This document shows positions 23,209 to 46,401 of a stretch of DNA of 64,000 nt, piece by piece. The stretch is from Desulfobacterales bacterium. GTDB lineage: Bacteria; Desulfobacterota; Desulfobacteria; Desulfobacterales; JAHDSC01. The translations under genes were made by a program, and so were the position numbers. The notes under the pieces were generated by a model. It was not told the origin of the DNA. It was given only the letters and a program-made list of their open reading frames with translations, and searched no databases. Where the stretch lies: the NCBI GenBank assembly GCA_016931455.1, contig JAFGES010000054.1, positions 1 to 64,000 on the forward strand. Direction: 5' to 3'. Each line of letters starts with the position of its first letter. Position 1 is the first letter of the stretch.

Positions 23209-24408
23209 ATGGGCCGTAATTCAACTTATAATATATTAATGTATTCTCACGACACCTATGGTCTTGGGCACATCCGCAGAACGATGGCCATTGCCTCCCA
23301 TTTGCGAGGAGAAAATATCAATATTCTTATTCTGACCGGTTCTCCCATCGCCGGTCGCTTTTCTTTCCCGGAACAGATTGATTTTGTACGCATACCGGGC
23401 ATGATAAAAAAAACCAATGAAGAGTACCTGCCGCTTTCAATAAAGATCAATCCCAAGCACGCACTTGATATTCGCAAGAACATCATCACAGCTACCGCCA
23501 AAACTTTTAAACCGCATCTTTTTATCGTGGACAAAGAACCCCTCGGACTTAAAAAAGAGGTTTTGCCTACACTCCAGTGGTTGCGCCGATGCTTGCCGCG
23601 AACGCGAACGATTTTGGGATTACGAGATATTATGGACGATGGAGAAACCATCCGCAAAGACTGGCTGGAAAAAGGTGTTTATGAAGTTTTGGATCAACTG
23701 TACAGTGAAATATGGATTTATGGAATTCAAAAATTTTATGATCCGATCCAAGAATATGCCATTCCGGAAAATATTAGTCGTAAGATGTATTTTACCGGCT
23801 ATATCCCGCGAAAGGTTCCCAATAAAGACATTGTTGATAGGGCTCGAAAAGCGTATGCACTCAAGAAGGATGAAAAGTTGGTCGTAGTGACGACCGGCGG
23901 AGGTGGAGATGGATACACAATGATGGATACTTTTCTTTCAATGCTCGAAACCGAACCTATACCCTTTTGCTTCAAAAGTGTTTTAATCACCGGACCGTTT
24001 ATGCCGATGAAAAAACGTAATGATATCTTCGAACGTTCCAAACGGTTGGGTGTGGCAACTTACCGATTTTACGATAAAATGGAAGAATTGTTGGCGGCGG
24101 CGGATCTTGTTGTCAGTATGGGTGGATATAATACGGTTTGTGAAATTCTGACCCAGGAAACCGTTTCTTTGCTTGTTCCTCGCGAAACTCCCCGCAAAGA
24201 ACAGCTTATTCGATCCACGGTCCTTCATAACCAAAACCTTGTTGATTTTATCCCCTGGCGGGTTATTTCACCCCAAACGCTACGCAAAAAGATACTGGAC
24301 CTGCTTGAGCATCCTGAACATTATCGAAAAGCCATCGCAAATTTCCAGCTAACCGGTATCGAAAACATGCAGCAACGCCTGCGGATTTTTAGGAATAATA
24401 AAATATGA
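23209..24408 (+). CDS. MurG/GT28-like glycosyltransferase (COG4671 type)
   Basis: A 399-residue protein with two Rossmann halves. The N-terminal half has the donor-independent signature YSHDTYGLGHIRRTMAIA (residues 12-29), and the C-terminal half has VVVTTGGGGDGYTMMDTFL and MGGYNTVCEIL followed by LVPRETPRKEQLIRS, the nucleotide-sugar-binding loop pattern of GT28/MurG enzymes. It was probably a soluble or peripheral inner-membrane glycosyltransferase. It opens the plus-strand glycan cluster and overlaps the next gene by 4 bp. A paralogue with the same layout lies at 27479-28651. No clear ribosome site before the ATG. Confidence 0.78.
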   Translation: MGRNSTYNILMYSHDTYGLGHIRRTMAIASHLRGENINILILTGSPIAGRFSFPEQIDFVRIPGMIKKTNEEYLPLSIKINPKHALDIRKNIITATAKTFKPHLFIVDKEPLGLKKEVLPTLQWLRRCLPRTRTILGLRDIMDDGETIRKDWLEKGVYEVLDQLYSEIWIYGIQKFYDPIQEYAIPENISRKMYFTGYIPRKVPNKDIVDRARKAYALKKDEKLVVVTTGGGGDGYTMMDTFLSMLETEPIPFCFKSVLITGPFMPMKKRNDIFERSKRLGVATYRFYDKMEELLAAADLVVSMGGYNTVCEILTQETVSLLVPRETPRKEQLIRSTVLHNQNLVDFIPWRVISPQTLRKKILDLLEHPEHYRKAIANFQLTGIENMQQRLRIFRNNKI

Positions 24409-25676
24409 GCAGATCCAATCCTCCGGTTTTAGGTATGATTCTAAAAGGATATCCGCGTATTTCTGAAACTTTTATATCCAATGAGATTCTGCTGCTTGAA
24501 AAACTTGGATTTTCCATTCATATTTTTTCCATGCGTCAGCCGCGGGAGACATTTTGTCATGATAGTGTCAAGCAGATCAAGGCGTCTGTGGACTACCTCC
24601 CGGAATCTCTTTTAACCCATCTTCCAAGCTTATTGTATCACAATGGCATGCTTGCAAAAAAAAGTCCCAAGCTCTATAAAGAGGCTTTTCAAATGGCCCT
24701 GCGCCGCTTTATACGCAAGCATCGGCATGCAACCTTGAAGCATTTATTGCAGGCAGGATATCTGGTTCACAAACTTCTTCCGGCAAGCCGTGCCGTTCAT
24801 CTACACGCTCACTTTGCTCATTCTCCCACTTCGGTTGCCATGTTCGCCGGCCGATTAAGCAACGTGCCTTTTAGTTTTACCGCTCACGCAAAAGATATCT
24901 ATACTTCGGATCCAATGCAGCTTCAGGAGAAAATTGCCCATGCCCGATTCGTGGTCACTTGTACGCAATACAATAAAGATTATCTAACTGAACTCTCCCC
25001 TGATGAAACAACTCCTATCCATCGAATTTACCACGGCATCGACATTGATTTTTTCAGCCATAATAAAGCCTTATGCAAACTGAAATCGAAACCTTGCCCT
25101 CCATACCAAATTCTCACGGTTGCTCGCTTAACCCCCAAAAAGGGTTTGACAACTATATACAAAGCGCTTCGAAATCTTTTGGATATGGGATTTTCCATCC
25201 GCCATACATTAATAGGAGATGGCGAAGACCGCCATCAACTCCTCGCTCTCATCAAAGAACTATGCATAGGTGATGTTACGCAGTGTCTGGGTACCCTGCC
25301 GCACCAAGATGTATTGGAATACTATCGGCAATCGGACCTGTTTGTGCTCGGTTGTGAAATTGCACCCAACGGAGACCGGGACGGTATACCAAATGTCATT
25401 ATAGAAAGCATGGCGATGGAAGTGCCTGTGGTGGCAACTCGAATATCAGCCATTCCCGAAGTAATTATAGATGAAAAAACAGGGCTTTTAGTACCTCCCG
25501 GCCGACCGGAAAAAATGGCTCAAGCCATGGTGCGGCTTCTAACGGATATGAATTTGAGAAATCAAATCGTCACAGCGGCTAGAAAGCTTGTGATGGATCA
25601 ATTTGACAATAAAATTCTGATTCAAGATCTTGCCGCAATCTACCGTCGGTCAATCCATGAATTTAGCCGACAGTGA
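24405..25676 (+). CDS. GT4 family glycosyltransferase (WcaL-like)
   Basis: A 423-residue GT-B enzyme. Early motif YPRISETFISNEILLLEKLG is typical of the colanic-acid/WcaL and AmsK group; HLHAHFAHSPTSVAMFA lies near residue 130. The C-terminal domain has LTVARLTPKKGLTTIYKAL, the phosphate/nucleotide contacts, and PNVIIESMAMEVPVVATRI carrying the E-x7-E-like catalytic pattern. It overlaps the upstream gene by ATGA, so translation is coupled. It should add a sugar to a lipid-linked or surface glycan from a nucleotide-sugar donor; specificity unknown. Confidence 0.88.
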   Translation: MSRSNPPVLGMILKGYPRISETFISNEILLLEKLGFSIHIFSMRQPRETFCHDSVKQIKASVDYLPESLLTHLPSLLYHNGMLAKKSPKLYKEAFQMALRRFIRKHRHATLKHLLQAGYLVHKLLPASRAVHLHAHFAHSPTSVAMFAGRLSNVPFSFTAHAKDIYTSDPMQLQEKIAHARFVVTCTQYNKDYLTELSPDETTPIHRIYHGIDIDFFSHNKALCKLKSKPCPPYQILTVARLTPKKGLTTIYKALRNLLDMGFSIRHTLIGDGEDRHQLLALIKELCIGDVTQCLGTLPHQDVLEYYRQSDLFVLGCEIAPNGDRDGIPNVIIESMAMEVPVVATRISAIPEVIIDEKTGLLVPPGRPEKMAQAMVRLLTDMNLRNQIVTAARKLVMDQFDNKILIQDLAAIYRRSIHEFSRQ

Positions 25677-25689
25677 GCAACAAGATCAT

Positions 25690-26817
25690 ATGCATATTTA
25701 TTTTTATACCCCTTTTAAACCCCTCGGCCATTTGACCCCTTCCGGAGATCTTATGATTGCCAAGGGTTTATTCAACTATCTGGTTTGCAAAGGGCATCAG
25801 GTGCATCCGGTAAATTCTTTGCGAACCCGATGGATATACTGGAAACCGTGGCTTTGGCCCAAATTCATGCTTGAACAGCAGCGAATCTTAAGAAAAATTA
25901 TCCGTAATCGGCCGGATTTGTGGCTGACTTATCATTCTTATTATAAAGCTCCTGATATTTTGGGACCGATTATTTCAAAACAAGTTAAAATACCTTATGT
26001 AATTTTTCAGGGGATATATTCGACAAAAAGAAAAAGAAATTTGAAAACCCTGCCTGGATTTATTCTCAACAAACAGGCCTTAAAGTCAGCTCAACATGTT
26101 TTTACCAATAGATGCGAAGACCTAATTAACCTGAATCGTATCCTGCCTAAAAAACATTTGACCTATATTTCCCCGGGGATCAAACCAAAAGAATTTTGTT
26201 TTGATACAAAAGCTCGGAGTGAACTAAGATATTCCTGGAATATTAAAAATGAACCGGTTATTCTATCTGCAGCGATGTTTCGTCCCGGTGTCAAGTCTGT
26301 CGGCATTGCTTGGCTGATCCGAACCTGCAGAAAAATTTTTCAAGAAAATAAACGCCTTTGTCTTGTGATTGCCGGCAATGGTGAAGAAAAGAACCGACTT
26401 ATCCGACTGGCTGAAGATCAACTGCCCGGTCAATTTCGTTTTGTCGGCCAAATACCCCAGGATAAAATGTATCGTTTCTATAGTGCCGGAGATATTTTTG
26501 CATTTCCGGGGATAAAAGAATCCTTAGGCATGGTTTTTCTGGAAGCGCAGTCATGTGGTTTGCCGGTGGTTGCCTTTGCAAATGGGGGTATTCCGGAGGT
26601 GGTCAAGGATCGAGAAACCGGATTTTTATTGCCGCCATATGCTTCCGACATGTATGCTGATGCAATTAAAAAACTAATTAAAGACAAAAAGCTGCGTGCT
26701 CAAATGGGTGAGGCCGGACGACAATATGTATGGAGGTATCATGATTTAAACGTAAATTATGAAAAGCTAGAACTTATATTAAAAAAAATCTCCCAACTTC
26801 AAGGCACAAAAGCATAG
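25690..26817 (+). CDS. GT4 family glycosyltransferase
   Basis: A 375-residue GT-B glycosyltransferase: N-terminal MHIYFYTPFKPLGHLTPSGD start, then CLVIAGNGEEKNRLIRLAED, DIFAFPGIKESLGMVFLEAQ and CGLPVVAFANGGIPEVV, the GT4 E-x7-E donor site. The frame is open from 25630, inside the preceding gene, and another ATG lies at 25657. The ATG at 25690, 13 bp after the upstream stop, gives a typical beta-strand start and is preferred, although its ribosome site is weak. Same cluster and direction as its neighbours. Confidence 0.85.
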   Translation: MHIYFYTPFKPLGHLTPSGDLMIAKGLFNYLVCKGHQVHPVNSLRTRWIYWKPWLWPKFMLEQQRILRKIIRNRPDLWLTYHSYYKAPDILGPIISKQVKIPYVIFQGIYSTKRKRNLKTLPGFILNKQALKSAQHVFTNRCEDLINLNRILPKKHLTYISPGIKPKEFCFDTKARSELRYSWNIKNEPVILSAAMFRPGVKSVGIAWLIRTCRKIFQENKRLCLVIAGNGEEKNRLIRLAEDQLPGQFRFVGQIPQDKMYRFYSAGDIFAFPGIKESLGMVFLEAQSCGLPVVAFANGGIPEVVKDRETGFLLPPYASDMYADAIKKLIKDKKLRAQMGEAGRQYVWRYHDLNVNYEKLELILKKISQLQGTKA

Positions 26818-26820
26818 GTA

Positions 26821-27447
26821 ATGATAGAGGTAGATCCGATCACACATTTCGGCATTCTACGCCACGCCGAAACACAATGGAATCTTCAAAAGCGAATTCA
26901 AGGCCAAAATGATAGTCCCCTGACATTTGAGGGAATACAGCAGGCAAGATCATGGGGTCTTGTGCTCAAGGATCAGGTTTGGGATCAGATTTTAACCAGT
27001 GATATCGGGCGCGCACTTAAGACGGCAACCCTTATCAATATTTACTTACGAATCGGCATCAAATGTGATAAACGGCTTCGGGAACAAGACTGGGGTCGAT
27101 GGTCCGGCAAGACGCTTGCAGATTTAAAAAAAGAAGAACCTGCGCTTTTATCTGATCAAGAAAAAGCAGGGTGGAAGTTTTGTCCGCCTGGTGGAGAGAG
27201 TCGCCGGACGGTTTTAAAGCGCAGCATGGAAGCTTTAAAAGAAGCTACTGCAAAATGGTCAGGTAAAAATATCCTCGTTGTCACGCACGAAAGCGTTATT
27301 AAATGCCTTACTTATTATTTTTCTGCGCGTCGGTTTCTTCCTTCCGAACCTTCTTTGCTCCTTGGGAATTATCTGCATCGCTTAAAATGGGATTCTCTGG
27401 GATTGGGTATTGATAAAATTAATGCCCTGGATTTAACGGGAGCCTAA
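26821..27447 (+). CDS. Histidine phosphatase family protein
   Basis: A 208-residue branch-1 histidine phosphatase. RHAETQWN (His15 is the phosphohistidine) is followed by RIQGQNDSPLTFEGIQQA, SDIGRALKTATLI, the acid region LREQDWGRWSGKTL, and NILVVTHESVIKCL with the second catalytic His. It lies 3 bp after a glycosyltransferase gene and 31 bp before the next. In this setting it may dephosphorylate a sugar phosphate or nucleotide-linked precursor of the glycan; a general phosphoglycerate mutase-like or cobalamin (CobC-like) role cannot be excluded. Confidence 0.85.
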   Translation: MIEVDPITHFGILRHAETQWNLQKRIQGQNDSPLTFEGIQQARSWGLVLKDQVWDQILTSDIGRALKTATLINIYLRIGIKCDKRLREQDWGRWSGKTLADLKKEEPALLSDQEKAGWKFCPPGGESRRTVLKRSMEALKEATAKWSGKNILVVTHESVIKCLTYYFSARRFLPSEPSLLLGNYLHRLKWDSLGLGIDKINALDLTGA

Positions 27448-27478
27448 ATTCCCGATCATCTACAAATTTATAAATATA

Positions 27479-28651
27479 ATGAAAATTATCTATTACTGCC
27501 AGTATGTCCTGGGAGTCGGACATTTTTTCAGGAGCCTTGAAATTTGCCGTCAACTTTCAGAGCATGAGGTTATTCTGGTCACAGGAGGCACCCCGATTGA
27601 CGTGGTTTTGCCGGCGCATGTTCGCCAATTCCATCTACCCGAAATTATGATGGATCACAACTTCGATCACCTACTATCCAAAGATAGCGAACAATCGCTT
27701 AACCATATTAAAATACTGCGCCGAAAATACCTTTACAACCTTGTTCAACAAGAAAAGCCGGATATCATCTTTATAGAACTTTATCCCTTCGGACGAAAAG
27801 CGTTTCGTTTTGAGCTCGATCCGATCTTAAAAGCAATTCGAAATAAAATTTTACCATCAAGTCGCGTGATTTGCAGTTTGCGGGATATACTGGTGGAAAA
27901 AAATAACCCTGATTCATATGAAACGCGTGTCATAGAGACTCTTAATCGTTATTTTGATGCTCTCCTGATTCATTCCGATCCTGAACTGATCAAATTAGAC
28001 GAAACTTTCTCAAAGACCAAAGAGATTTCAATTCCAATCGCTTATACCGGCTTCGTAACGCCAAAACCTCTACCGAATACCCGCCGAAAGCTACGGCAAG
28101 AGTTGGGCCTTGAATTAAATGCATTTTTAATCCTTGCAAGTGCCGGTGGAGGCAATGTCGGCGCATCACTACTGGAAAATGTAATAAATGCTTTTCAGTT
28201 TATTGAAAAAGAAAATCCATTCTACCTAATTGTTTTTACAGGCCCTTTCATGAGCGAAGAAAAATTTAATCATCTTAATAAATTTTCAAACAACCAGGTT
28301 CGGATTCATCGTTTTACTTCGGATTTCGTTTCATATCTGGCGGCTGCAGACCTCTCGATAAGCATGGCAGGTTACAACACTTGCCTAAATATTTTGGCCG
28401 CAAGGGTTCCGGCTTTGGTATGGCCTTTTTCTCAAAACCGTGAGCAAAAATTCCGAGCTGAAAAGCTCGCCCAAATGGGCGCACTTCAAATATTGGAAGA
28501 TAAGGATCTAAAACCCTTCAGGCTTGCAGCTGTTATAAACCAAGTGATGTCCCGACGGTTTCAGCCCTCGAAACGAATTGACCTAAATGGTTCGATCAAT
28601 ACGGCAAAATGGCTTAAAAGATGGATGCACAATATTGGGAACAAATCATGA
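27479..28651 (+). CDS. MurG/GT28-like glycosyltransferase, paralogue of 23209-24408
   Basis: A 390-residue GT-B-like protein with the same architecture as the gene at 23209: YYCQYVLGVGHFFRSLEICR near residue 5, an IFIELYPFGRKAFRFELDP stretch in the first half, and ASAGGGNVGASLLENVI then SMAGYNTCLNILA and ALVWPFSQNREQKFRAEKL in the second half, the nucleotide-sugar-binding region. The two differ enough in the middle to act on different acceptors. Its stop overlaps the next gene's start (ATGA). Confidence 0.75.
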   Translation: MKIIYYCQYVLGVGHFFRSLEICRQLSEHEVILVTGGTPIDVVLPAHVRQFHLPEIMMDHNFDHLLSKDSEQSLNHIKILRRKYLYNLVQQEKPDIIFIELYPFGRKAFRFELDPILKAIRNKILPSSRVICSLRDILVEKNNPDSYETRVIETLNRYFDALLIHSDPELIKLDETFSKTKEISIPIAYTGFVTPKPLPNTRRKLRQELGLELNAFLILASAGGGNVGASLLENVINAFQFIEKENPFYLIVFTGPFMSEEKFNHLNKFSNNQVRIHRFTSDFVSYLAAADLSISMAGYNTCLNILAARVPALVWPFSQNREQKFRAEKLAQMGALQILEDKDLKPFRLAAVINQVMSRRFQPSKRIDLNGSINTAKWLKRWMHNIGNKS

Positions 28652-29448
28652 ATGACACCTCTGCATCGATATGGCACCACCTTCCCTCTGATCTCGTTTC
28701 AAGGATAGAAACATGCGTCGATGCAGCGTGCGGCCGATTAAGTACAAAAAATCCTGTAAGTATTTTTTTTCGTGCTGATGATATTGCCGTTCCGGGAAAG
28801 AATTTTTTTCAACTTATTGAGTTGTTTATAAGCTACCGAATTCCACTTTCCTTAGCAGTCGTACCGGCATGGATCACGAAAATTCGCTGGCAAACGATTA
28901 AACAATCGGCAAACAAAGCCCCGAAACTCTGGTGTTGGCATCAACACGGTTGGCGGCATATGAACCATGAATCTAAAGGCAAAAAGCAAGAATTTGGGCC
29001 GGGGCGGTCAATTGATCGAATTAGAAAAGATCTTCTGTACGGGCGAAAGCGCCTTGAAATGGTTCTGGGTAATGCTTTTTATCCGGTCTTCACGCCACCG
29101 TGGAATCGTTGTGATCACAATACGCTTGAACTTTTAAAAAAGTTCAAATACCGGGCCGTCTCTCGCAGCCAATACAGCAAGCCGTTACCCCCGAATGGAT
29201 TGCCGGATTTTTCCGTAAATGTTGATTTGCATACCTGCAAGGAAACGAATCCAATCGAAGCTTGGAATCATCTCTTTAAAGAACTGTTTCAGTCGCTATC
29301 CAGCGGCTTCTGTGGAATCATGCTTCATCATCAGCGTATGAATGAGCCTGCATTCATTTTCCTCGAACTTCTTTTAAGAGCCTTAATAAAAGAAAAATAT
29401 TTTCGTCTTGTCAGTTTGAAGGATCTATCCGAAAATAGAAAAACATAA
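28648..29448 (+). CDS. Polysaccharide deacetylase-like protein
   Basis: A 266-residue protein with NodB-type motifs: FFRADDIAVPG (motif 1 aspartates), WHQHGWRHMNHE (motif 2, H-x3-H metal ligands), and FTPPWNRCDHNTLELL (motif 3). It may remove acetyl groups from a glycan. No signal peptide is seen, so it would act in the cytoplasm on a lipid-linked precursor, unless exported by a cryptic route. It starts at the ATG 28648 that overlaps the upstream stop; the frame is open 27 bp further back. It ends the cluster. Confidence 0.78.
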   Translation: MNDTSASIWHHLPSDLVSRIETCVDAACGRLSTKNPVSIFFRADDIAVPGKNFFQLIELFISYRIPLSLAVVPAWITKIRWQTIKQSANKAPKLWCWHQHGWRHMNHESKGKKQEFGPGRSIDRIRKDLLYGRKRLEMVLGNAFYPVFTPPWNRCDHNTLELLKKFKYRAVSRSQYSKPLPPNGLPDFSVNVDLHTCKETNPIEAWNHLFKELFQSLSSGFCGIMLHHQRMNEPAFIFLELLLRALIKEKYFRLVSLKDLSENRKT

Positions 29449-36092: not shown

Positions 36093-38101
36093 AAAAAAAG
36101 ATAAATGATATCGACTCATCAGACTCGAGTTCCCGAATTCGATTGCGGGCCATCATCCTCGGACTGTTTCTCGCTGTTGTAACCTGTGCACTAACACCGT
36201 TTAACAACGCATATCACCAAGCAACACCACTAGGTGGAGGGCATTTCCCACTGGCCCCTTTTTTTATTCTTTTATGGCTAACCTTACTCGTTGCGGCTGT
36301 TAAAAAGCTGTTCAGAGGCTGGACCGGTTTGACGGGAAAAGAGATTTTAATGGCCTGGATACTAATGGTTCTCGTATCCGGAATTGCTTATACCGGCTTA
36401 GTTCGTACCTTCTTTATCAATCTCACTGCACCCTTCCATTTCGCAACTGTTGGAAACCGCTGGAGAGAAATTCTTCACCCTCTTCTTCCCAAAGCCTTAT
36501 ACCCCCAAAACGAGATGGCAATTGAAAATTTTTATAACGGGCTATCCGGCGGACGACAGATGCACTGGTGGGAAGTTATTCACCGTATTCCTTGGGAAAC
36601 CTGGTTACTGCCGCTGATTATTTGGGGTATTTTTATCTTGCTTTGTTATTTTGTCATGCTTTGCTTGGTGAATATATTAAGTAGACAGTGGCTTCACAAT
36701 GAAAGAATGAATTTTCCCCTTCTGCAAGTTCCTCAGGTCATGGAAGAGGCTTTGGATAATAATGGAATCGGCCGCTTTTTGAAAAATCGTTTTCTTTTAG
36801 CCGGTTTGATGGTACCCATTTTTCTGCACCTATTAAACGGCCTTCATTTTTATTTTCCAACGGTTCCACAGCTGCCGACGTTAATCCTGGCGGGTCCGTA
36901 TTTTCCCCAATATGGTCTTTTTTCAGGTTTTCAAAAACTTAAAATTTATATTTACCCAGCCTTTATCGGTTTTGCCTTTCTGACTTCACGACAGATCTCC
37001 TTTTCCTTCTGGATATTTTTTATACTGGGAGGTCTGCTGATCGGTCTGTTGAACTTGATCGGCTACAATATTCCTGCAGCGGCCTTGGGTATAACTTTTG
37101 GTCCAACCCTTTCCAGACCTGAAGAGACTCAGATGATTGGAGCTTACGGCGTGTTTTTTCTTTTTATTCTTTGGCTGGCGCGGCATCACTTGCTGGATGT
37201 TTTACGCCAAGCTTTTAGTTTTGGAACCCGGGAACATTCTGAGACGGAGTGGTTTTCAATCCGCCTGTCTTTTTGGGGTTTAATCTTCGGTACTGTTGGA
37301 ATTATTCTCTGGTGCTTTTATTTTGGAATGCCCATGAGTGTTTGTTTTTTAGTTGTCGGGTCTTTTTTTATGATTATGCTCGTGTCCAGTCGTATCATTT
37401 GCCAGGGGGGACTTGCATACTTCACTTTGACCGTTGCCCCGATCGACGGGCTTCTTGCATTTCTGGGGCCCCAATTTTTTAGCAATATCGGTTTATTACT
37501 TGCCGCGGTGATCCAAAAAATACTTTTTTTGGACCTTCGAGAAGCACTTATGCCTTCTTTAGTTCATGCACGTGAGATTACGCAGAAAATGAAAAACAAA
37601 AGGCTGATTCTGTTCGCTATAGTGGTTGCTCTAATCGTGGGCGTGGTTGTTTCTTTTTTAGCCATGCTAACGCTTTGCTACAAATACGGGGTCCGCGAGC
37701 TGCAGTTGGATTGGGCGACCCGAACCACCGTGGCCGTATATGAAAACATTGAAACACTGATTGAATCACCGATAAAACCCGGCGAATGGGTTTTAATTTT
37801 TTCCCTTGTCGGCGCAGTGGTCATGCTGATTTTAGTGATATGCTACCATCAAATCTATTGGTGGCCGATTCATCCGATCGGCTATCTGACCGCTTACAGT
37901 TCGGCAATGCGAATTCTTTGGTTCAGCTTTTTTGTAGGCTGGCTTTTTAACGCGATTTGTATGCGCTATGGCGGTGTAATTTTATTCAAAAGGCTACGTT
38001 ATTTTTTTATTGGATTGATCATCGGAGATTTTTTTATGGGAGGAATCTGGGCACTGGTGGGTCTCTTCGGAGACGCAAGTTACCTGGTACTGCCGGATTA
38101 A
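36089..38101 (+). CDS. Large polytopic membrane protein, DUF6785/OPT-like
   Basis: A 670-residue inner-membrane protein with at least 12 hydrophobic segments. It resembles the DUF6785 group and, more loosely, oligopeptide transporters (OPT family): LTPFNNAYHQATPLGGGHFP early, then RQWLHNERMNFPLLQVP and GGLAYFTLTVAPIDGLLA. The GTG start overlaps the giant protein's stop (GTGA), so translation is coupled. A second protein of similar type follows. Transport of peptides or a related amphiphile is plausible but unproven; the family has no established substrate. Confidence 0.65.
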   Translation: MKKKINDIDSSDSSSRIRLRAIILGLFLAVVTCALTPFNNAYHQATPLGGGHFPLAPFFILLWLTLLVAAVKKLFRGWTGLTGKEILMAWILMVLVSGIAYTGLVRTFFINLTAPFHFATVGNRWREILHPLLPKALYPQNEMAIENFYNGLSGGRQMHWWEVIHRIPWETWLLPLIIWGIFILLCYFVMLCLVNILSRQWLHNERMNFPLLQVPQVMEEALDNNGIGRFLKNRFLLAGLMVPIFLHLLNGLHFYFPTVPQLPTLILAGPYFPQYGLFSGFQKLKIYIYPAFIGFAFLTSRQISFSFWIFFILGGLLIGLLNLIGYNIPAAALGITFGPTLSRPEETQMIGAYGVFFLFILWLARHHLLDVLRQAFSFGTREHSETEWFSIRLSFWGLIFGTVGIILWCFYFGMPMSVCFLVVGSFFMIMLVSSRIICQGGLAYFTLTVAPIDGLLAFLGPQFFSNIGLLLAAVIQKILFLDLREALMPSLVHAREITQKMKNKRLILFAIVVALIVGVVVSFLAMLTLCYKYGVRELQLDWATRTTVAVYENIETLIESPIKPGEWVLIFSLVGAVVMLILVICYHQIYWWPIHPIGYLTAYSSAMRILWFSFFVGWLFNAICMRYGGVILFKRLRYFFIGLIIGDFFMGGIWALVGLFGDASYLVLPD

Positions 38102-38138
38102 GATTAAATAACATATCAACAGCGGATGCGATGTTTGC

Positions 38139-40100
38139 ATGTATGAGGATAAAGAACTACAGGAATACAGAGATCTACTAAAAATACCGACTCATTTCGA
38201 GGAAGGATTTGACTGGAAAACTATTGTAGGTGCAGTTTTTATCGGATTCCTCATGATGCCGGGTAGTATGTATCTCCAACTGGTGATCGGTACCGGGATC
38301 GGCCCTGCTGCAAGGTGGGTAACGATTATTCTGTTTGCCGAGATTGCCAAAAGGTCTTACACGGAGCTCAAGCAACAAGAAATTTTCCTGCTTTATTATA
38401 TGGCAGGTGCAGCCCTTGCTTCTCCATTTCAAGGACTTTTGTGGAATCAATATCTGATTCAATCCGATGCAGCCAAGATGCTCGGTCTGACTGAATTTAT
38501 TCCCAATTGGGTCGCACCGGCCCCGGGTTCAATTTCATTGGTGGAACGGACGTTTTTCCACCGTGACTGGTTAATCCCCATACTCTTGCTGATTGGATCT
38601 CAAATCATTCAGCGAATCGATCATTTCGGGCTGGGATACGCCCTTTATCGGATCACTTCGGATGTGGAAAAGCTTCCCTTTCCAATGGCACCGGTAGCAG
38701 TTCTCGGAACCATGGCGCTGGCTGAGTCCACGGAAGAAAAACAAAAAAGCTGGAAATGGCGCATTTTTTCCATCGGCGGTGTCATTGGGCTTGTTTTCGG
38801 AGGAATCTATGTACTCTTACCGACTGTATCAGGTCTTCTTTTTGCCGAACCCATTCGCCTGATTCCAATACCGTGGATTGAATTAACCCGCCATACAGAA
38901 GAGATATTGCCGGCGGTCGCGACAGGCATACAGCTTGATTTGGGGCTCATATTCATTGGAATGGTGTTACCTTTCTGGGCCGTAATCGGAGGCCTTGTCG
39001 GTCTCATTATTACGATTGTCGCAAATCCGATTCTCTATCACCAGGGCATTCTCCAGCGTTGGCATCTGGGGATGGGGACTGTGGATACGGTTTTTGCGAA
39101 CAGTTTTGATTTTTATATGAGTTTTGGAATCGGTCTGGGTTTATCCATCGCATTTGTAGGAATTTGGTCGGTCATTCGATCTTTCGGAAAAAACAATAAA
39201 GGTCCGCGTGGCAGCTTCAAAGATCTTTTCCGACCACCGCCCGGACGGGGGGATTTCAACTTCTGGATTTCCATCGGAATTTATGTTTTTTCGACTCTTG
39301 CATATGTCGGCTTTTGCGTTTGGCTCGTACCCAATTTCCCCTGGATTTTTTTCATTGGCTATGGGTTTGTTTATACACCGATCATATCTTATATAACGGC
39401 CCGAATGGAAGGAATTGCCGGACAGTTTGTCAGCCTTCCCCTTGTAAGAGAAGCAAGCTTTATTGCGGGCGCTAAATTTTTTGGTTACCAGGGCATCGAA
39501 ATTTGGTATGCACCTATTCCCATTCACAATTATGGCGAAGCAACGGTTCACTTCCGTGAAATTGAATTAACCGGCACCAGTATTCGCGGGATCATAAAGG
39601 CTGAAATTGTCGTTTTCCCGGTAGTAATGGTTGCCAGCCTTCTTTTTTCCCAATTCATCTGGCGACTGGCACCCATTCCTTCAAACAGTTATCCCTACGC
39701 CCAGGAGTTATGGCACCTTCAAGCACTGAACACCCTTTTGATGCAAACCTCAACCCTGGAAGGCAACTCGCTATTTTTTCAAGCCTTGAAAGGAAGTTAT
39801 GTCTTGACAGGTCTGGGGTTCGGAATCATTACTTATGGATTGCTGACGATTTTGCATCTTCCGATTTTATTGGTTTATGGTGTTGTGCGCGGTCTTGGCC
39901 AAAGTACACCCCATGGGCTTATTCTGGAAGTCGTTGGAGCCATGTTGGGACGATTTTTCTTTTTAAAGCGCTATGGTGCCATGTGGCGTCAGTATGCACC
40001 GGTTCTGCTGGCCGGTTTTTCCTGCGGTATGGGATTGATGGGCATGTTCGCCATGGGTTTTGCGCTCATCCTCAAATCATTAGGACGACTAGCTTATTAA
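38139..40100 (+). CDS. Large polytopic membrane protein, OPT-like, paralogue-type partner of the preceding gene
   Basis: A 653-residue membrane protein with about 14 hydrophobic segments, sharing layout with the preceding protein. Features: KTIVGAVFIGFLMMPGSMYL near the start, RWVTIILFAEIAKRSYTELK, a repeated YRITSDVEKLPFPMAPVAVL that matches the R-x-W/F-P-x2 loop of the partner, and IAGQFVSLPLVREASFIAG in the last third. Two such proteins in tandem may make one heteromeric carrier. Ribosome site weak. Function inferred from distant similarity only. Confidence 0.62.
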   Translation: MYEDKELQEYRDLLKIPTHFEEGFDWKTIVGAVFIGFLMMPGSMYLQLVIGTGIGPAARWVTIILFAEIAKRSYTELKQQEIFLLYYMAGAALASPFQGLLWNQYLIQSDAAKMLGLTEFIPNWVAPAPGSISLVERTFFHRDWLIPILLLIGSQIIQRIDHFGLGYALYRITSDVEKLPFPMAPVAVLGTMALAESTEEKQKSWKWRIFSIGGVIGLVFGGIYVLLPTVSGLLFAEPIRLIPIPWIELTRHTEEILPAVATGIQLDLGLIFIGMVLPFWAVIGGLVGLIITIVANPILYHQGILQRWHLGMGTVDTVFANSFDFYMSFGIGLGLSIAFVGIWSVIRSFGKNNKGPRGSFKDLFRPPPGRGDFNFWISIGIYVFSTLAYVGFCVWLVPNFPWIFFIGYGFVYTPIISYITARMEGIAGQFVSLPLVREASFIAGAKFFGYQGIEIWYAPIPIHNYGEATVHFREIELTGTSIRGIIKAEIVVFPVVMVASLLFSQFIWRLAPIPSNSYPYAQELWHLQALNTLLMQTSTLEGNSLFFQALKGSYVLTGLGFGIITYGLLTILHLPILLVYGVVRGLGQSTPHGLILEVVGAMLGRFFFLKRYGAMWRQYAPVLLAGFSCGMGLMGMFAMGFALILKSLGRLAY

Positions 40101-40192: not shown

Positions 40193-40819
40193 ATGAAAAA
40201 GAAAACGTATATGTTCTTATGGATGAACGTGACGCTCTTATTTACAGCCGGCATATGCCTAGCCCAAATTCCTCATGGAGTGGGCGGATTTATTCTGGGT
40301 AAAAATATCTCTGAATATAAAAAATCAATAAAAGCTGAAACCGCTTTGCCGATTCGTTATATGGAATACCTACGGGAAGTGGAAATCATTAAAACGGAAG
40401 ATTTTAAAAGTGGGCTTATCTGTTATGGAACCTGTTTGAACCCTGGGCAAATTGTGCGTATTAAACTCAAGTACGCCGATTCCACTAAAAAATTTTATGA
40501 TACACTTTTTGAGCGCTTCAAGAAGCGTTTTGGTAAGCCCTCTGAGTGGCGGGGCGATTCTTTTCATATTGTCATTGCCTGGAAATGGAATTTTACCGAT
40601 GCTGAAAACAACCACATCAGCTTGATTTTGCAGCACAATACCAAAGATGAAGAGGAAAAAATAGGTAACGTTGTTAAACTTACGATGTGGAATCTAATCG
40701 AAGCGGAAAGTTTATGTTTTGAAAAAAAAGAAAACCGGCAGGCGGAAAGAGATCTTAAAGGTATAGACGAAGATATTGGTTCGGTTCCGCTCCATTGGGA
40801 CCGCTTAATTCCCCGATAG
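40193..40819 (+). CDS. Exported protein of unknown function
   Basis: A 208-residue protein with a signal peptide (MKKKTYMFLWMNVTLLFTAG, cleavage likely after CLA). The mature part begins IPHGVGGFILGKNISEYK and has alternating beta/charged segments; two cysteines (SGLICYGTCLNPGQ) lie close together and might form a disulfide in the periplasm. A GGGGAGGG ribosome site precedes the ATG. It sits downstream of the OPT-like pair and may act in the periplasm with them. No recognised domain. Confidence 0.7.
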   Translation: MKKKTYMFLWMNVTLLFTAGICLAQIPHGVGGFILGKNISEYKKSIKAETALPIRYMEYLREVEIIKTEDFKSGLICYGTCLNPGQIVRIKLKYADSTKKFYDTLFERFKKRFGKPSEWRGDSFHIVIAWKWNFTDAENNHISLILQHNTKDEEEKIGNVVKLTMWNLIEAESLCFEKKENRQAERDLKGIDEDIGSVPLHWDRLIPR

Positions 40820-40840
40820 AATCGTCTTTTTACGTACTCC

Positions 40841-41740
40841 ATGCAAAATTCCGATCCGATCATATGTAGAAAAATAGCTTGGAATGGTATCTGCTTTTCA
40901 GCACCCGTCAACTGGGAGGTAGCGCAGATAGGAAAACGTTACCTCATGCTGGAGGATACGGAAGGGCCGGTTTTGGAAGTCAAATGGAACCGAATCAAGG
41001 GATTTTTTTCCTCAAAAGCTTACCTACGTCAACTGGCAGCATTTTATAAACGACACTTTAAAAAAAAATTGACCGAATTTCCTCTTCCGGACCAATGGGC
41101 AAATATGATAGGCAATGGCTATCAGGCTCGATGTTTTTCCTGGCAAGGGAAAAACTTTGGTGGTAAAGGCATTATTCTTTATTGCACCATCTGTCAAAAT
41201 GCAACGTTGATTCAATTTTACCATAAGGCCGCCTCAAATAGAGCATATCGCATAGAAAGCCTTTTGTCTTCTTTTCAAGACCATCGAATAGACGATCAGA
41301 TTTTCTGGTCTATCTTTGATATCCAAGCAACGATTCCAGTGAATTTCCAGTTGGTTCGATATCAATTTGAGGCCGGCAAATTTGAATTGGCATTTGCTTC
41401 CAAAGGACAAAAAATTATTCTGTATAGGTGGGCTCTGACATCAATTCTGCAGTGCGAACAGGATTTTGTCCAATTTGCCGAAGCAATGACTCATCTGCCG
41501 AAAAAAAATCCGAATTACAGAAGCTTAAAGAGCTGTAAAGGCTTAGAGTGGGAAATAGTTTCCCCCAAAGCTTTTTGGCGGCGGTACCTCTATTGGCCAG
41601 GGGAAAAGACTTTATTTCAATGGGTTAGGATTTGGCAAGTGGAAGAGAAAAATCGTATTCTGGGAATTAGGGCAGAAGGTAAAAAAGCTTTCGATCCTTT
41701 TTTTCTTGAAAGAATTTGCACGAATTATGAGGCTCTTTAA
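40841..41740 (+). CDS. Uncharacterised protein with internal duplication
   Basis: A 299-residue cytoplasmic protein of unknown function. Two stretches look alike: residues about 18-48 (ICFSAPVNWEVAQ ... LEVKWN) and 165-197 (ATIPVNFQLVRY ... IILYRW), each being a Pro-x-Asn-aromatic start followed by a beta-rich hairpin and an ending with Trp. This hints at two copies of one beta-sandwich-like domain. Its last 14 bases overlap the PqqD-fold gene, implying coupled translation. No clear ribosome site precedes the ATG. Confidence 0.62.
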   Translation: MQNSDPIICRKIAWNGICFSAPVNWEVAQIGKRYLMLEDTEGPVLEVKWNRIKGFFSSKAYLRQLAAFYKRHFKKKLTEFPLPDQWANMIGNGYQARCFSWQGKNFGGKGIILYCTICQNATLIQFYHKAASNRAYRIESLLSSFQDHRIDDQIFWSIFDIQATIPVNFQLVRYQFEAGKFELAFASKGQKIILYRWALTSILQCEQDFVQFAEAMTHLPKKNPNYRSLKSCKGLEWEIVSPKAFWRRYLYWPGEKTLFQWVRIWQVEEKNRILGIRAEGKKAFDPFFLERICTNYEAL

Positions 41741-42125
41741 AAGAAAAGAAAAGAAAATAGGTTTAAATCGTGCCGAAGCCCTTAGATGTATACCGGTTAA
41801 AAATATACAGGTTATTGAAGTTCGGATAGAAACAGGTGAGGTTCTTCTTTCCTATCCCCTTCATGTTCGCCCCTGGATCGCCGGCCTATCCAGACGTTTT
41901 GGAGTCCGTTCGGATAGTTATCCGACAAAAAAACTACAGATGGATGTGCTCGGAACTGCTGTTTGGGACCTTGTTGACGGCAATCGCAGCGTATTGAAAA
42001 TAATCCGGGAGTTTGCCGAAAAATATCAACTTCACCCCAAAGAGGCGGAAGTATCCGTAACCCAATTTTTCCGTGAGCTGGGAAAACGTGGGATTATCGG
42101 CCTTAATCCAAGTCCGGTGGATTAA
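41727..42125 (+). CDS. PqqD-fold (RRE-like) protein
   Basis: A 132-residue protein. After a basic N-terminus (MRLFKRKEKKIG) and a beta-rich segment, the C-terminal 75 residues match the PqqD winged-helix: KKLQMDVLGTAVWDLVDGNR, VLKIIREFAEKYQL, AEVSVTQFFRELGKRGII. PqqD-like domains bind the leader of a ribosomally made peptide and present it to a modifying enzyme, but many members lack a known peptide. The start is the ATG at 41727, which overlaps the preceding gene by 14 bp; the frame is open from a TTG at 41706. No radical-SAM partner gene lies in the window. Its stop interlocks with that of the STAS gene. Confidence 0.8.
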   Translation: MRLFKRKEKKIGLNRAEALRCIPVKNIQVIEVRIETGEVLLSYPLHVRPWIAGLSRRFGVRSDSYPTKKLQMDVLGTAVWDLVDGNRSVLKIIREFAEKYQLHPKEAEVSVTQFFRELGKRGIIGLNPSPVD

Positions 42126-42484
42126 GGGTCACGGCTTGGTATTTGTGAGGCCTCAAAATTTTTGAGGGCATCCCCCCTATTTGGAACAATCGGAATAATG
42201 GAATCAAATCCGGCTATTTCAAAGACCTCTTTAACATAATCTTCCATGGAACAAAGTATAACCCTGCCGTCAGAATGTTTAAGCTGTTTTGCAACTTTTA
42301 GAATGACACGCAGCCCGGCACTGGAAACATAATCAAGGGATTCAAAATCTATAATCATATTTCTTGAACCCTTTTCAATGATCTCAAAAATTTTTTTCTC
42401 AAATTCCGGTGAAGTGTTGGAATCAAGTCGGCCTTTAGGCTTAATTATGTAAATATCATTTTGTTTTTCTTCTATAACTTCCAT
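42122..42484 (-). CDS. STAS-domain anti-sigma-factor antagonist (RsbV/SpoIIAA-like)
   Basis: A 120-residue STAS protein. Early strands IYIIKPKGRLDSNTSPEFEK and the phospho-switch site DYVSSAGLRVILKVA with Ser54/Ser55 show the antagonist fold; phosphorylation of the conserved serine would be by the kinase encoded next (42579-43010). It is expected to bind that kinase in partner switching. AGGAGGGT is the ribosome site. Its stop shares bases with the convergent PqqD gene. Confidence 0.88.
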   Translation of the reverse strand: MEVIEEKQNDIYIIKPKGRLDSNTSPEFEKKIFEIIEKGSRNMIIDFESLDYVSSAGLRVILKVAKQLKHSDGRVILCSMEDYVKEVFEIAGFDSIIPIVPNRGDALKNFEASQIPSRDP

Positions 42485-42578: not shown

Positions 42579-43010
42579 TTATCGGCCAACTGTAAATTTC
42601 TTTTTCATTGTTAAAATATTTTTATTTCCATCTCTCTCATAAACGATATCATTCATCAGCTGTTTAATCAGATAAACCCCTAGACCGCCGATCGGACGTT
42701 CTTCAAGACCACATTCAAAATCAGGCTTTTCAGTTTTAACAAGATTAAAAGGGATGCCGTCATCTTCGATGCGAATAATTATATGTCCATTTTGGGTTGA
42801 AAACATAATTTTAATCCAATGGTCGGCATTATCCACATATCCATAGGAAATAATATTCGTAAATATCTCCTCTAATGCTAAGTTAATCTCAAGCAGATGT
42901 TTTCGAGAAAGTCTGCAAGAGTTACCGAATGCTTCCAGCTTGCGGGACAAAATATCTAATTCCGAAAGTCTATTTTTAAGGCAAAAGTAAACCGTATTTT
43001 CAAGCATCAC
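42579..43010 (-). CDS. RsbW/SpoIIAB-like ATP-binding kinase
   Basis: A 143-residue HATPase_c_2 protein: N-box LALEEIFTNIISYGY, ATP lid HIIIRIEDDGIPFNL and the glycine box GGLGVYLIKQLMND. Such proteins phosphorylate STAS antagonists and hold a sigma factor or another partner. It is followed 94 bp downstream by the STAS gene. The start can be either of two tandem ATGs. Confidence 0.87.
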   Translation of the reverse strand: MMLENTVYFCLKNRLSELDILSRKLEAFGNSCRLSRKHLLEINLALEEIFTNIISYGYVDNADHWIKIMFSTQNGHIIIRIEDDGIPFNLVKTEKPDFECGLEERPIGGLGVYLIKQLMNDIVYERDGNKNILTMKKKFTVGR

Positions 43011-43052: not shown

Positions 43053-43580
43053 TTATAACACGCTGACGCCGATCAACTCTTTACAAGACTCACAACATGC
43101 GGAATAATCAACGAGTAAGCGGTTTTCCCACGCATATATTCTCCTAACCACCCCTTTAAACATTTTAGGAATCAGCTCCGGAAATTGTTGCATCGCCCGG
43201 GAAAATTTATCGCGATCCAGAATTAGACATGAAAGCGCCGATAAAGCTTTCAAGGAATAAAGGCGCGGCAAATTGCCGAGCAAAGCAAGCCCGCCTAAAA
43301 ATTCCCCTTGACCATATTCTCGAATTAATAATTCACTCTCTCTATTTGTGTACAACAGTCCGCATTTTCCGGTAATAATATAAAAAGCCTGACTATCATC
43401 GTCATCTTTTTGAAACAGATAGTCATTTTGTTTGAATGTCTCTCTGTTGCACAGATAGGCTAAAACCTTAAGGACTTCCATTGGAAGTCCTGAAAAAAAA
43501 TAGATTTCACGCAAAATCTCTATATTTTCTTCAAACTCACAAGCTTGACATTCTTTATTTTTTTCCGGTGATAAGCTCAT
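43053..43580 (-). CDS. Cyclic-nucleotide-binding-fold protein with terminal cysteine motifs
   Basis: A 175-residue protein. The core (about residues 20-140) is a cNMP-binding beta-roll: YFFSGLPMEVLKVLAYLC, then QAFYIITGKCGLLYTNRES and GQGEFLGGLALLGNLPRLYS. The usual E and R phosphate-binding pair (F-G-E-x-A-L ... R-S/T-A) is partly replaced (LGGLALLGNLPRLYS), so ligand binding is uncertain. No DNA-binding domain is present. A CQAC motif near residue 10 and CCESC near the C-terminus could bind a metal. The start ATG at 43580 has AAAGGAA upstream and overlaps the ABC gene end by 26 bp. Confidence 0.8.
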   Translation of the reverse strand: MSLSPEKNKECQACEFEENIEILREIYFFSGLPMEVLKVLAYLCNRETFKQNDYLFQKDDDDSQAFYIITGKCGLLYTNRESELLIREYGQGEFLGGLALLGNLPRLYSLKALSALSCLILDRDKFSRAMQQFPELIPKMFKGVVRRIYAWENRLLVDYSACCESCKELIGVSVL

Positions 43581-46077
43581 ATAACATTCCTTTACTCTCA
43601 ACAAGTTCATCATAAGTTCCAATCTCAGCAAGTTTTCCAGCCTTCATAACCGCGACTTTGTCATAATTTTTGATAATATCCAAACGATGGATAACCGCAA
43701 TCAATGTACTTTTACCTTTCCACCGGGTCTCGATCAAACTTTGTATTCGCGCCTGAGATTTATTATCGAGACCGGAAGTTGCTTCATCCATGATCAGTAT
43801 TTTGGGTTTTTTGAGTAATACTCGTGCGATGGCAAGCTTCTGTCGCTGTCCTCCGGAAAGCTTATCGCCTTGACTACCGACATTATATTGCATGCCGATA
43901 TTTACGATGGCCTCCATGATATCCTCCTCGATCAAAAGCTGAATGATGCTCTGATATATTTTATCTTGGATTCGTGGATTGTTTGTTTTAGTTTTTCCAA
44001 AGAAAATATTGTTCAAGATCGATTGATTATAAATATAATCCGATCGCTGATAAAAAGAAAAAGCACCTGGAAAATACATGGAAATTTTTTCTCTAAACCG
44101 TTTTCGCCCTTTTAAGATAAGTTGCCGCAAATTCTCTGAAAGGGCTACCATTTTGTGTTTACCGGGCGTAAATCGTAATGCTGATTTCAAAATTTTTTCC
44201 CGTTCATCCGAAGAAAGTTGATGTAAATCGATTTTTTTCAATCGGTCGGCAAGAATTTTATATTCACTCAACTCTTCCGATGAAATGGGGCTCTGTTCAA
44301 AAAACATCTCCTCTGCCGGTAGATTCCGTAATATATCTACCGTCCGTTGGGTCAGTTTTGCTCCTAAGTTTAAAAGCGGATCTATCAGCTCGTTTTCACT
44401 TAAAAAATTCTGAAAATATTCATTTTTAAACAAGTTTTTATCAGAAAACGATTCTTGTCCGAATGCACCGAAAGTTAAATTTTCGGTGATGCTCGAGTAA
44501 TTCATATAATTATTTTCATTAAAGAATTCAACATATTCGGACAATTCTTTTCCAAATTTAAGGTGAAATTTTCGTCGGACCCGAATGAGCTGGTTTCCCA
44601 TCTCCTTATTTTTTTGACGATCGATAATTGCATGTAAACCAAATCGAAGAACATCTACAAACAGACCGGTTTGTTGAAGAACTTCAATCATATCGTCAAG
44701 CGTCGGCATTACATCGTCTTTGTCGGAACCATCTTCTTTAATTTTTGCTGAACACGCATAAAGGAGATTTTCTTTGATGGTTCCGGAAAAAATAAAAGGC
44801 ATCTGAGAAACAAAGCCCAAGTTGTTAATTATATCCCTTTTTGATAAATTCGAAACTTCCTTTTCCCCAATCCAAACGTGACCGCCGGTATATTTGTAAA
44901 GCTGCCCGATGCATTGAGCTAAAGTGCTTTTTCCGCTACCGGAAAAACCAACCAAAGCTAAATGCTCACCGGGTCTTAAGGAAAACGTAACGTTATCGAT
45001 AAGCTTGATACCGCTTTCAGGTTCAAATGATAATTCTTGGACCTCAAGACTGCCGGCTAAATCAAAAGGTTTACGCCCTGAAGGCTCAAGTTCGTATTCC
45101 GGAAGAAGATCGAAATATTCCATCGTCCGATAATAGCTTATAGAAGCATCCTGATAGCTCTGATAAAAATCGATAAGTTCCTTCCAGGGATCATATAGTT
45201 TCTCTTGCGCCGATAGAAATGCGACTAACGCACCGAGTTCCAATTGACCATTGATTGCCAGATAGCCACCTAAAATAAATATGAGAAATGGGCTTAGGCT
45301 ATTGAAGAAATTATTAAAACCTTTAATCCCAAATCTGTAAAAATTCCAGATGATCCTAATCTTCGTCAGCTTATTGACCAGGTTATCATATTTTTGGTTT
45401 TCAATATGATAAGCACCATTGCCTTGGATTTCATGAATACCGGTGATGGATTCCGCAATTAGACTTGAAAGTTTTCGGGTCGTGTCAACACGTTTTTTAT
45501 TTTCAGTATTGGCACGTTTTTGCAGCATAGGTAACAAAAAAAGTACAATGGGATAGATACTAAGTGACACAGCGGCTAAAAGCGGATTCAGCCAAAAGAG
45601 ATAGCCTGCAAAAGCGATCAGCGTTAAAATATTAGTGACGGGGACGGCAATCGCCATACCCACAAAATCGCCTGCTGAAGCCAGCTCGGCAACCAGTGAT
45701 GAAACCACCATTCCGGGTTGAGTTTTTCTAAAAAAACTTAGCGGTAGGGTTAAGATATGATGGTATAATTCTTTGCGCATTGCTGCCGTTGCCCGTTGGC
45801 CGATAACGGTTTGAAGAATATTAATAAGATATTTAAGCCCGCCGGAAGCAAAAACTGCAACCAGATAAATTCCACAGTAAAGCAATAATAAATCGATTTT
45901 TTTTAAACGAATGGCCTCGTTAACGATTCTTTTTTGCATCTCCAAAGGAAGGACTCTGGCAAAAACAGTGATTAGAATAATTATAATCAAAAGTACTTGG
46001 AGCTTCATGTTGCCGGAAAATACCCATGAAAAAAGCGATTTTTCAGCAACCGGTATTTGCATTTCAGCTTTTTTCAT
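43555..46077 (-). CDS. ABC exporter (TMD-NBD fusion) with expanded helical subdomain
   Basis: An 840-residue inner-membrane half-transporter. The membrane domain (about 20-315) has six segments. The nucleotide-binding domain has Walker A GFSGSGKST (377-385), signature LSGGQRQKLAIARVL (near 740) and Walker B ILIMDEATSGLD. The distance from Walker A to signature is about 360 residues, compared with about 110 usually. The extra 250 residues look like repeats of the segment after the Q-loop: SGTIKENLLYA, SSITENLTFGA, NQSILNNIFFG. The ATG at 46077 follows GGAGGAG; the frame is open to a GTG at 46095. Its 3' end overlaps the cNMP-fold gene by 26 bp, so both may work together. Confidence 0.86.
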   Translation of the reverse strand: MKKAEMQIPVAEKSLFSWVFSGNMKLQVLLIIIILITVFARVLPLEMQKRIVNEAIRLKKIDLLLLYCGIYLVAVFASGGLKYLINILQTVIGQRATAAMRKELYHHILTLPLSFFRKTQPGMVVSSLVAELASAGDFVGMAIAVPVTNILTLIAFAGYLFWLNPLLAAVSLSIYPIVLFLLPMLQKRANTENKKRVDTTRKLSSLIAESITGIHEIQGNGAYHIENQKYDNLVNKLTKIRIIWNFYRFGIKGFNNFFNSLSPFLIFILGGYLAINGQLELGALVAFLSAQEKLYDPWKELIDFYQSYQDASISYYRTMEYFDLLPEYELEPSGRKPFDLAGSLEVQELSFEPESGIKLIDNVTFSLRPGEHLALVGFSGSGKSTLAQCIGQLYKYTGGHVWIGEKEVSNLSKRDIINNLGFVSQMPFIFSGTIKENLLYACSAKIKEDGSDKDDVMPTLDDMIEVLQQTGLFVDVLRFGLHAIIDRQKNKEMGNQLIRVRRKFHLKFGKELSEYVEFFNENNYMNYSSITENLTFGAFGQESFSDKNLFKNEYFQNFLSENELIDPLLNLGAKLTQRTVDILRNLPAEEMFFEQSPISSEELSEYKILADRLKKIDLHQLSSDEREKILKSALRFTPGKHKMVALSENLRQLILKGRKRFREKISMYFPGAFSFYQRSDYIYNQSILNNIFFGKTKTNNPRIQDKIYQSIIQLLIEEDIMEAIVNIGMQYNVGSQGDKLSGGQRQKLAIARVLLKKPKILIMDEATSGLDNKSQARIQSLIETRWKGKSTLIAVIHRLDIIKNYDKVAVMKAGKLAEIGTYDELVESKGMLYELITGKK

Positions 46078-46401
46078 ATCAAAATGCTCCTCCACCGCTT
46101 GAGGTATACTGGGACGATAGACTATTTTCTAAATTACACAGATTCGATAGAATTGGTTTTGGTCCAACATCGATCAAATAATCGACACGGGTGGGCACGA
46201 GAGTGCGATTATTAATACTTATTCTAACAAAACTATCTGCGAATAACCATTGTTAAATACCGATAATCTTATTTTTATCGCCATAACTCCTTCATTCAAG
46301 CTTTATTATATAAAGTAGACCTCGTTCCCATTATTTTATTTTGACAAAACATACACTTAAAGGATATAAAAGCGAATTTAACAAATAAAAAGAGGTCTAT
46401 A
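46078..46401. other. Divergent gap between the ABC exporter and the DUF2065-queA-tgt operon
   Basis: 324 bp without a supported gene. The plus-strand promoter is given separately. Nothing else distinctive was seen except weak AT-rich stretches; the promoter for the leftward ABC/cNMP/kinase operon must be here. Confidence 0.5.
46341..46370 (+). promoter_or_regulatory. Predicted sigma-70 promoter of the DUF2065-queA-tgt operon
   Basis: TTGACA at 46341-46346 and TATAAA at 46365-46370, spacer 18 bp; start would fall about 25 bp before the DUF2065 ATG. One of the clearest promoters of the window. Confidence 0.6.

Follow-up and report, generated by a model that had tools for sequence, protein, structure and literature searches.

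The analysed window, a stretch of 64,000 nt from a Desulfobacterales bacterium (contig JAFGES010000054.1), carries on its reverse strand an ABC exporter gene whose 3' end overlaps the gene of a cNMP-fold protein, followed by the genes of an RsbW-like kinase and of a STAS-domain protein (Table 1). Residues are numbered here on the 846-aa product that starts from the GTG codon. The in-frame ATG at 46077, where an earlier sequence-only reading of this DNA had ended the exporter, gives a product of 840 aa and is a better fit to the relatives than the GTG at 46095.

Table 1. Features of the exporter locus and of neighbouring genes (positions in the window)
Feature	Residues	Position	Strand	Basis or remark
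ABC exporter with triplicated helical subdomain		43555..46095	(-)	846 aa from GTG 46095
Transmembrane domain	20-330	45106..46038	(-)	ABC_membrane PF00664, E 4e-34; helices in AlphaFold2 model
Walker A GFSGSGKST	383-391	44923..44949	(-)	motif reading
Copy 1 of helical segment, Q-loop Gln431	426-490	44626..44820	(-)	profile comparisons
Copy 2 of helical segment, without Q-loop Gln and signature	497-590	44326..44607	(-)	profile comparisons, conservation
Helical tail of copy 2, without counterpart in other copies	591-653	44137..44325	(-)	profile comparison, model
Copy 3 of helical segment, running into signature	654-745	43861..44136	(-)	profile comparisons
ABC signature LSGGQ	746-750	43846..43860	(-)	motif reading
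Walker B / D-loop KILIMDEATSGLD	765-777	43765..43803	(-)	motif reading
cNMP-fold protein		43053..43580	(-)	PF00027, E 7e-15; conserved partner of exporter
HATPase_c_2 protein, RsbW-like anti-sigma kinase fold		42579..43010	(-)	PF13581, E 2.4e-23; frequent neighbour
STAS-domain protein, anti-sigma antagonist fold		42122..42484	(-)	PF01740, E 3.6e-23; frequent neighbour
Accessory genes: two unknown proteins and a PqqD-domain protein		40193..42125	(+)	PF05402, E 8.8e-9; often with the family
Glycosyltransferase / polysaccharide deacetylase-like cluster		23209..29448	(+)	relatives flank homologous exporter in Desulfospira and Rhizobiaceae

The exporter is a half-size transporter of the MsbA/TM287-288 fold with intact ATPase motifs, presumably a homodimer. 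Its single chain consists of an ABC_membrane domain followed by an ABC_tran nucleotide-binding domain (NBD; PF00005, E 6.7e-29, with the Pfam match split into two stretches), which is the arrangement of type IV ABC exporters, and all the ATPase motifs are present (GFSGSGKST, Q431, LSGGQ, DE770-771 and H803). The nearest NCBIfam matches are MsbA-type models, though the score against the MsbA equivalog TIGR02203 (297.5 bits) lies under the curated cut-off of 602. Pfam detected no peptidase C39 domain in the exporter, so that it does not qualify as a PCAT (HetC-like) transporter, and its own chain contains no cNMP-fold domain, this fold being encoded by the separate overlapping gene.

In the usual NBD architecture, about 100-110 residues separate Walker A from the signature, and we measured 103-108 in the ordinary exporters of this genome and of its class relatives (37 matched stretches, 33 distinct). 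The exporter of the window departs from this architecture with 363 residues between G383 and L746, in agreement with the sequence-only reading, which had estimated about 360 instead of about 110. The distance is likewise long in its relatives (360-384 across the 37 Desulfobacterota loci in which both motifs were recognised).

The helical subdomain of ABC transporters passes ATP hydrolysis on to the membrane domain and is present as a single copy in ordinary exporters. The sequence-only reading had proposed that this subdomain was multiplied here, based on the three motifs SGTIKENLLYA, SSITENLTFGA and NQSILNNIFFG. All three are present, lying about six residues past the positions then given (431, 528 and 684) because another start codon was chosen. 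To compare these regions, an alignment of 32 family members (30 from Desulfobacterota and two from Rhizobiaceae) was cut into the segments S1 (426-505), S2 (500-600) and S3 (657-752), which were then matched as profiles. The family profiles aligned with each other in hhalign with probabilities of 91.9% (S1-S2), 95.1% (S1-S3) and 98.7% (S2-S3), over 54-81 columns. Each segment also matched the profile of the ordinary stretch from Q-loop to signature (97.7%, 89.2% and 98.2% for S1, S2 and S3, respectively), the comparison of copy 2 being the weakest link. Because hhalign E-values hold for single comparisons, we assessed significance with column-permuted decoys: the real score of each pair exceeded those of all its 100 decoys, and the highest decoy probability was 10.2%. 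The profiles of the transmembrane domain and of the N- and C-terminal parts of the NBD did not match S1-S3, except for segments that overlap by construction.

Several residues occupy equivalent positions in the copies. Asn443, Asn539 and Asn696 are each conserved in all 32 sequences, as are Arg507 and Arg664, and in copies 2 and 3 alike the Arg precedes the Asn by 32 residues. The hydrophobic helix with a glycine that had been described at the end of each segment corresponds to the conserved position Gly486 (30 of 32 sequences), Gly578 and Gly734 (32 of 32 each). As also described there, only the last segment leads into LSGGQ: the signature adjoins copy 3 and the Q-loop belongs to copy 1. Pairwise identity among the copies is low (11-19%).

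AlphaFold2 modelled the full exporter from 16 sequences with a mean pLDDT of 79.7, and most of the NBD and of the insert scored about 80-94. Modelled alone, the insert reached a pLDDT of 88.8 and a pTM of 0.84. Copies 2 and 3 repeat one order of secondary-structure elements: a first helix (497-518 in copy 2, 654-674 in copy 3), a strand (522-524, 679-681), a second helix (536-541, 693-698), a second strand (543-545, 700-702) and two closing helices (559-567 and 571-589 in copy 2, 707-723 and 727-735 in copy 3). The whole model matched TM287/288, TmrAB, PCAT1 and further exporters in Foldseek. With only the insert as query, Foldseek gave no PDB match (best E 0.25), a profile search of PDB sequences with the insert returned weak matches only (E of 0.02 or more), among which those to ABC transporters map to the copy-3 part of the profile, and no Pfam family covers the insert. 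Together, the decoy-controlled profiles, the invariant equivalent residues and the modelled secondary structure support the view that the helical segment between Q-loop and signature was multiplied into three diverged copies. The proposed multiplication does not account for the whole insert, however: copy 2 bears a unique helical tail of about 60 residues (591-653), which matched neither S1 nor the ordinary NBD and transmembrane profiles and whose weak signal against S3 reflects a shared edge. The insert is therefore not purely a duplication.

We searched homologues for the same insert. Of 395 Desulfobacterota genomes, 28 contain it in full, at 35 loci in all, and it is also present on more than 260 alphaproteobacterial plasmids. 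All 35 Desulfobacterota matches span essentially the whole insert profile, without any two-copy or partial intermediate among them. The most divergent query matched 263 plasmid records from Rhizobium, Sinorhizobium, Ensifer, Ruegeria, Azospirillum, Sulfitobacter and others. Among 200 genomes of Bacillota, we obtained just two insert matches, both short and weak. The conservation of the insert across these genomes and plasmids rules out a sequencing or assembly artefact. The profile matches to ordinary NBDs speak against an unrelated domain acquired through gene fusion or as a mobile insertion. No description of the insert was found in the literature that we searched, whose coverage leaves out most subscription journals, and the exporter with triplicated subdomain is apparently an undescribed, conserved variant of a known transporter fold.

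The family is closely associated with the cNMP-fold gene. In the window, the likely start of this gene is the ATG at 43580, which is backed by the alignment with relatives and yields an overlap of 26 nt with the 3' end of the exporter gene. A cNMP gene lies directly 3' of the exporter in 14 of 15 loci in genome contigs and in 21 of 22 additional loci from Desulfobacterota whose flanks were long enough, that is, in 35 of 37 Desulfobacterota loci overall (two of which, L014 and L028, may be one contig, judging by length). It also adjoins the exporter in those Rhizobiaceae loci that were read together with their annotation, and the cNMP domain is fused to the C-terminus of the exporter in Azospirillum (P0005) and Ruegeria (P0006). 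The suggestion that the adjacent cNMP-fold gene could be the regulator thus gains genomic support from a near-universal adjacency, overlapping reading frames and fusion in two genera. The two loci devoid of the cNMP gene (L021 and L039) have kept the insert; because their inserts are not clear conservation outliers, the covariation of insert and cNMP gene received no support.

The cNMP-fold partner shares the PF00027 domain with the sensors of the CRP family but differs from them in that no second Pfam domain was matched and in that the phosphate-binding cassette is altered in the clade of the window. Instead of the pattern GE(x)ALL...R(x)A, the protein of the window presents GGLALLGNLPRLYSLKA, and GGLALL replaces GExALL in its clade. 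The usual glutamate is missing from this cassette and a classical cyclic nucleotide is therefore doubtful as the ligand of these proteins, as judged from their sequences. The cassette is near-canonical in the Rhizobiaceae relatives. In the clade of the window, the partner commonly carries cysteines close to its two termini and a C-terminus of the type G-(V/I/L)-x-x-(L/I/V). Next to it, the HATPase_c_2 kinase and the STAS antagonist are encoded together, as in an RsbW/STAS partner switch. These two genes lie downstream in many Desulfobacterota loci, although not in all: several loci contain neither gene inside the 16-20 kb read.

The alphaproteobacterial members present a different ATPase domain. 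In the two aligned Rhizobiaceae members, degenerate residues stand at Walker A, Q-loop, signature, Walker B and H-loop, and the insert keeps closer to the consensus than the NBD does (differences of +0.17 and +0.20); this difference is at most +0.09 in Desulfobacterota members. The 30 aligned Desulfobacterota members all retain Walker A, the Q-loop Gln, the signature, the Walker B Glu and the H-loop His. The motif loss was seen in a sample of five alphaproteobacterial members (L049, L050, L059, L060 and L061), all from plasmids, and was judged by eye for the three outside the alignment. All five keep the insert and two have a fused cNMP domain. Because the insert of the Rhizobiaceae members is better conserved than their NBD and the motifs are degenerate, the role of the insert appears to be separable from hydrolysis. 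The loci that we read have no canonical exporter half beside the degenerate gene; in Azospirillum, the adjacent gene reads, from its sequence, as a two-ATPase subunit of an importer. In the Rhizobium leguminosarum cluster, a gene with an adenylate/guanylate cyclase domain (L093, 10224-11567) is located upstream of the transporter genes.

Like the type IV ABC exporters (MsbA, TM287/288, Sav1866 and the ABCB group), the exporter of the window has one transmembrane domain and one NBD per chain, canonical ATPase motifs and a full model that matches their fold. It differs from them in having three helical segments instead of one and 363 residues instead of about 104 between Walker A and signature. 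The alphaproteobacterial members share NBD degeneracy with the heterodimeric exporters that have a degenerate site (TM287/288 and TmrAB), but all their main motifs are degenerate and no canonical partner half adjoins them in the loci read. HetC of Nostoc PCC 7120 is an ABC exporter whose cNMP-fold domain is required in vivo and binds ppGpp in vitro (PMC10986499). This system likewise ties an ABC exporter to a cNMP-fold domain and appears to be the only published precedent for an exporter under such a domain in the literature searched. In HetC, however, the cNMP domain is N-terminal and accompanied by a C39 peptidase domain (PMC10986499), whereas the present family has a separate downstream gene or a C-terminal fusion and no peptidase domain was found.

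The reading that we prefer, and to which we give an even chance, is that of an MsbA-type exporter whose enlarged ATPase domain gives the cNMP-fold partner a platform for docking or gating. The three copies would stem from an old tandem duplication of the segment from Q-loop to signature. With the Q-loop still present in copy 1 and the signature in copy 3, the protein should remain able to bind and hydrolyse ATP. Copy 2, its tail and the first helix of copy 3 make up an added domain of about 250 residues, which would be the cytoplasmic platform bound by the cNMP-fold protein from the overlapping gene. The state of this protein, depending on a ligand or, in some species, on the RsbW-like/STAS pair, would then decide whether the ATPase drives transport. 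In alphaproteobacteria, the ATPase motifs would have been lost and the platform and sensor kept, leaving a membrane scaffold or signalling subunit.

Alternatively, the extra copies could form an intramolecular mechanical element that contacts the coupling helices or the opposite NBD and alters the transport cycle, for example by holding the dimer closed, with the cNMP protein acting elsewhere, for instance on other partners. The insert lies exactly where hydrolysis is coupled to the membrane domain and its copies retain the helical-subdomain residues, both of which are consistent with this possibility, but the persistence of the insert where the ATPase motifs are lost and the near-universal pairing or fusion with a cNMP-fold protein make it somewhat unlikely. 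It is less probable still that the family is primarily a signalling receptor, a sensor scaffold with transport secondary or lost that feeds the RsbW-like kinase/STAS switch: such a role would fit the frequent HATPase_c_2 and STAS neighbours in Desulfobacterota, the missing catalytic motifs of the alphaproteobacterial members and the cyclase gene of the R. leguminosarum cluster, but not the catalytic motifs retained by every aligned Desulfobacterota member, nor the several loci where the stretch read contains neither a kinase nor a STAS gene. Finally, the low identity among copies and the absence of a PDB fold match for the insert alone could point to an unrelated helical domain with convergent amphipathic helices and a TI-x-x-N motif, which is very unlikely given the decoy-controlled profile matches, the Arg-Asn spacing and the invariant positions common to the copies.

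Under the preferred reading of a docking or gating platform, the family is a candidate for the direct cytoplasmic control of an exporter. The three-copy arrangement is common to two bacterial groups and is nearly always found beside a cNMP-fold protein, which suggests an undescribed form of pump control. The helical subdomain is normally single and is here conserved in three copies near a sensor-like protein; this family therefore constitutes a natural experiment on the function of the subdomain, and the alphaproteobacterial members, with the insert kept and the ATPase motifs lost, make the splitting of both functions testable. A further and unlikely proposal is that the tandem-multiplied subdomain became a separate regulatory module, under the control of a cNMP-fold partner, that outlived the ATPase in alphaproteobacteria. 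If true, a transporter lineage would have evolved into a sensor scaffold and its coupling element into a signalling part.

The surrounding genes offer a lead on the cargo. The cluster at 23209-29448 encodes glycosyltransferases and polysaccharide deacetylase-like and phosphoglycerate-mutase-like proteins. Relatives of its genes flank the exporter in Desulfospira (L010), and relatives of three of its glycosyltransferases do so in Rhizobiaceae. Because the surrounding genes include glycosyltransferases and a deacetylase-like protein, the locus may be engaged in glycan work and, as a lead only, the cargo might be glycan- or lipid-linked. Genes for a PqqD-domain protein, an M28/FtsX protein and membrane proteins of the DUF6785 type also recur near the exporter. 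In the window, two adjoining large membrane proteins are encoded at 36089-40100, the first a DUF6785/DUF6784 protein and the second without a Pfam match; relatives of these proteins also accompany the exporter at several loci of other Desulfobacterota.
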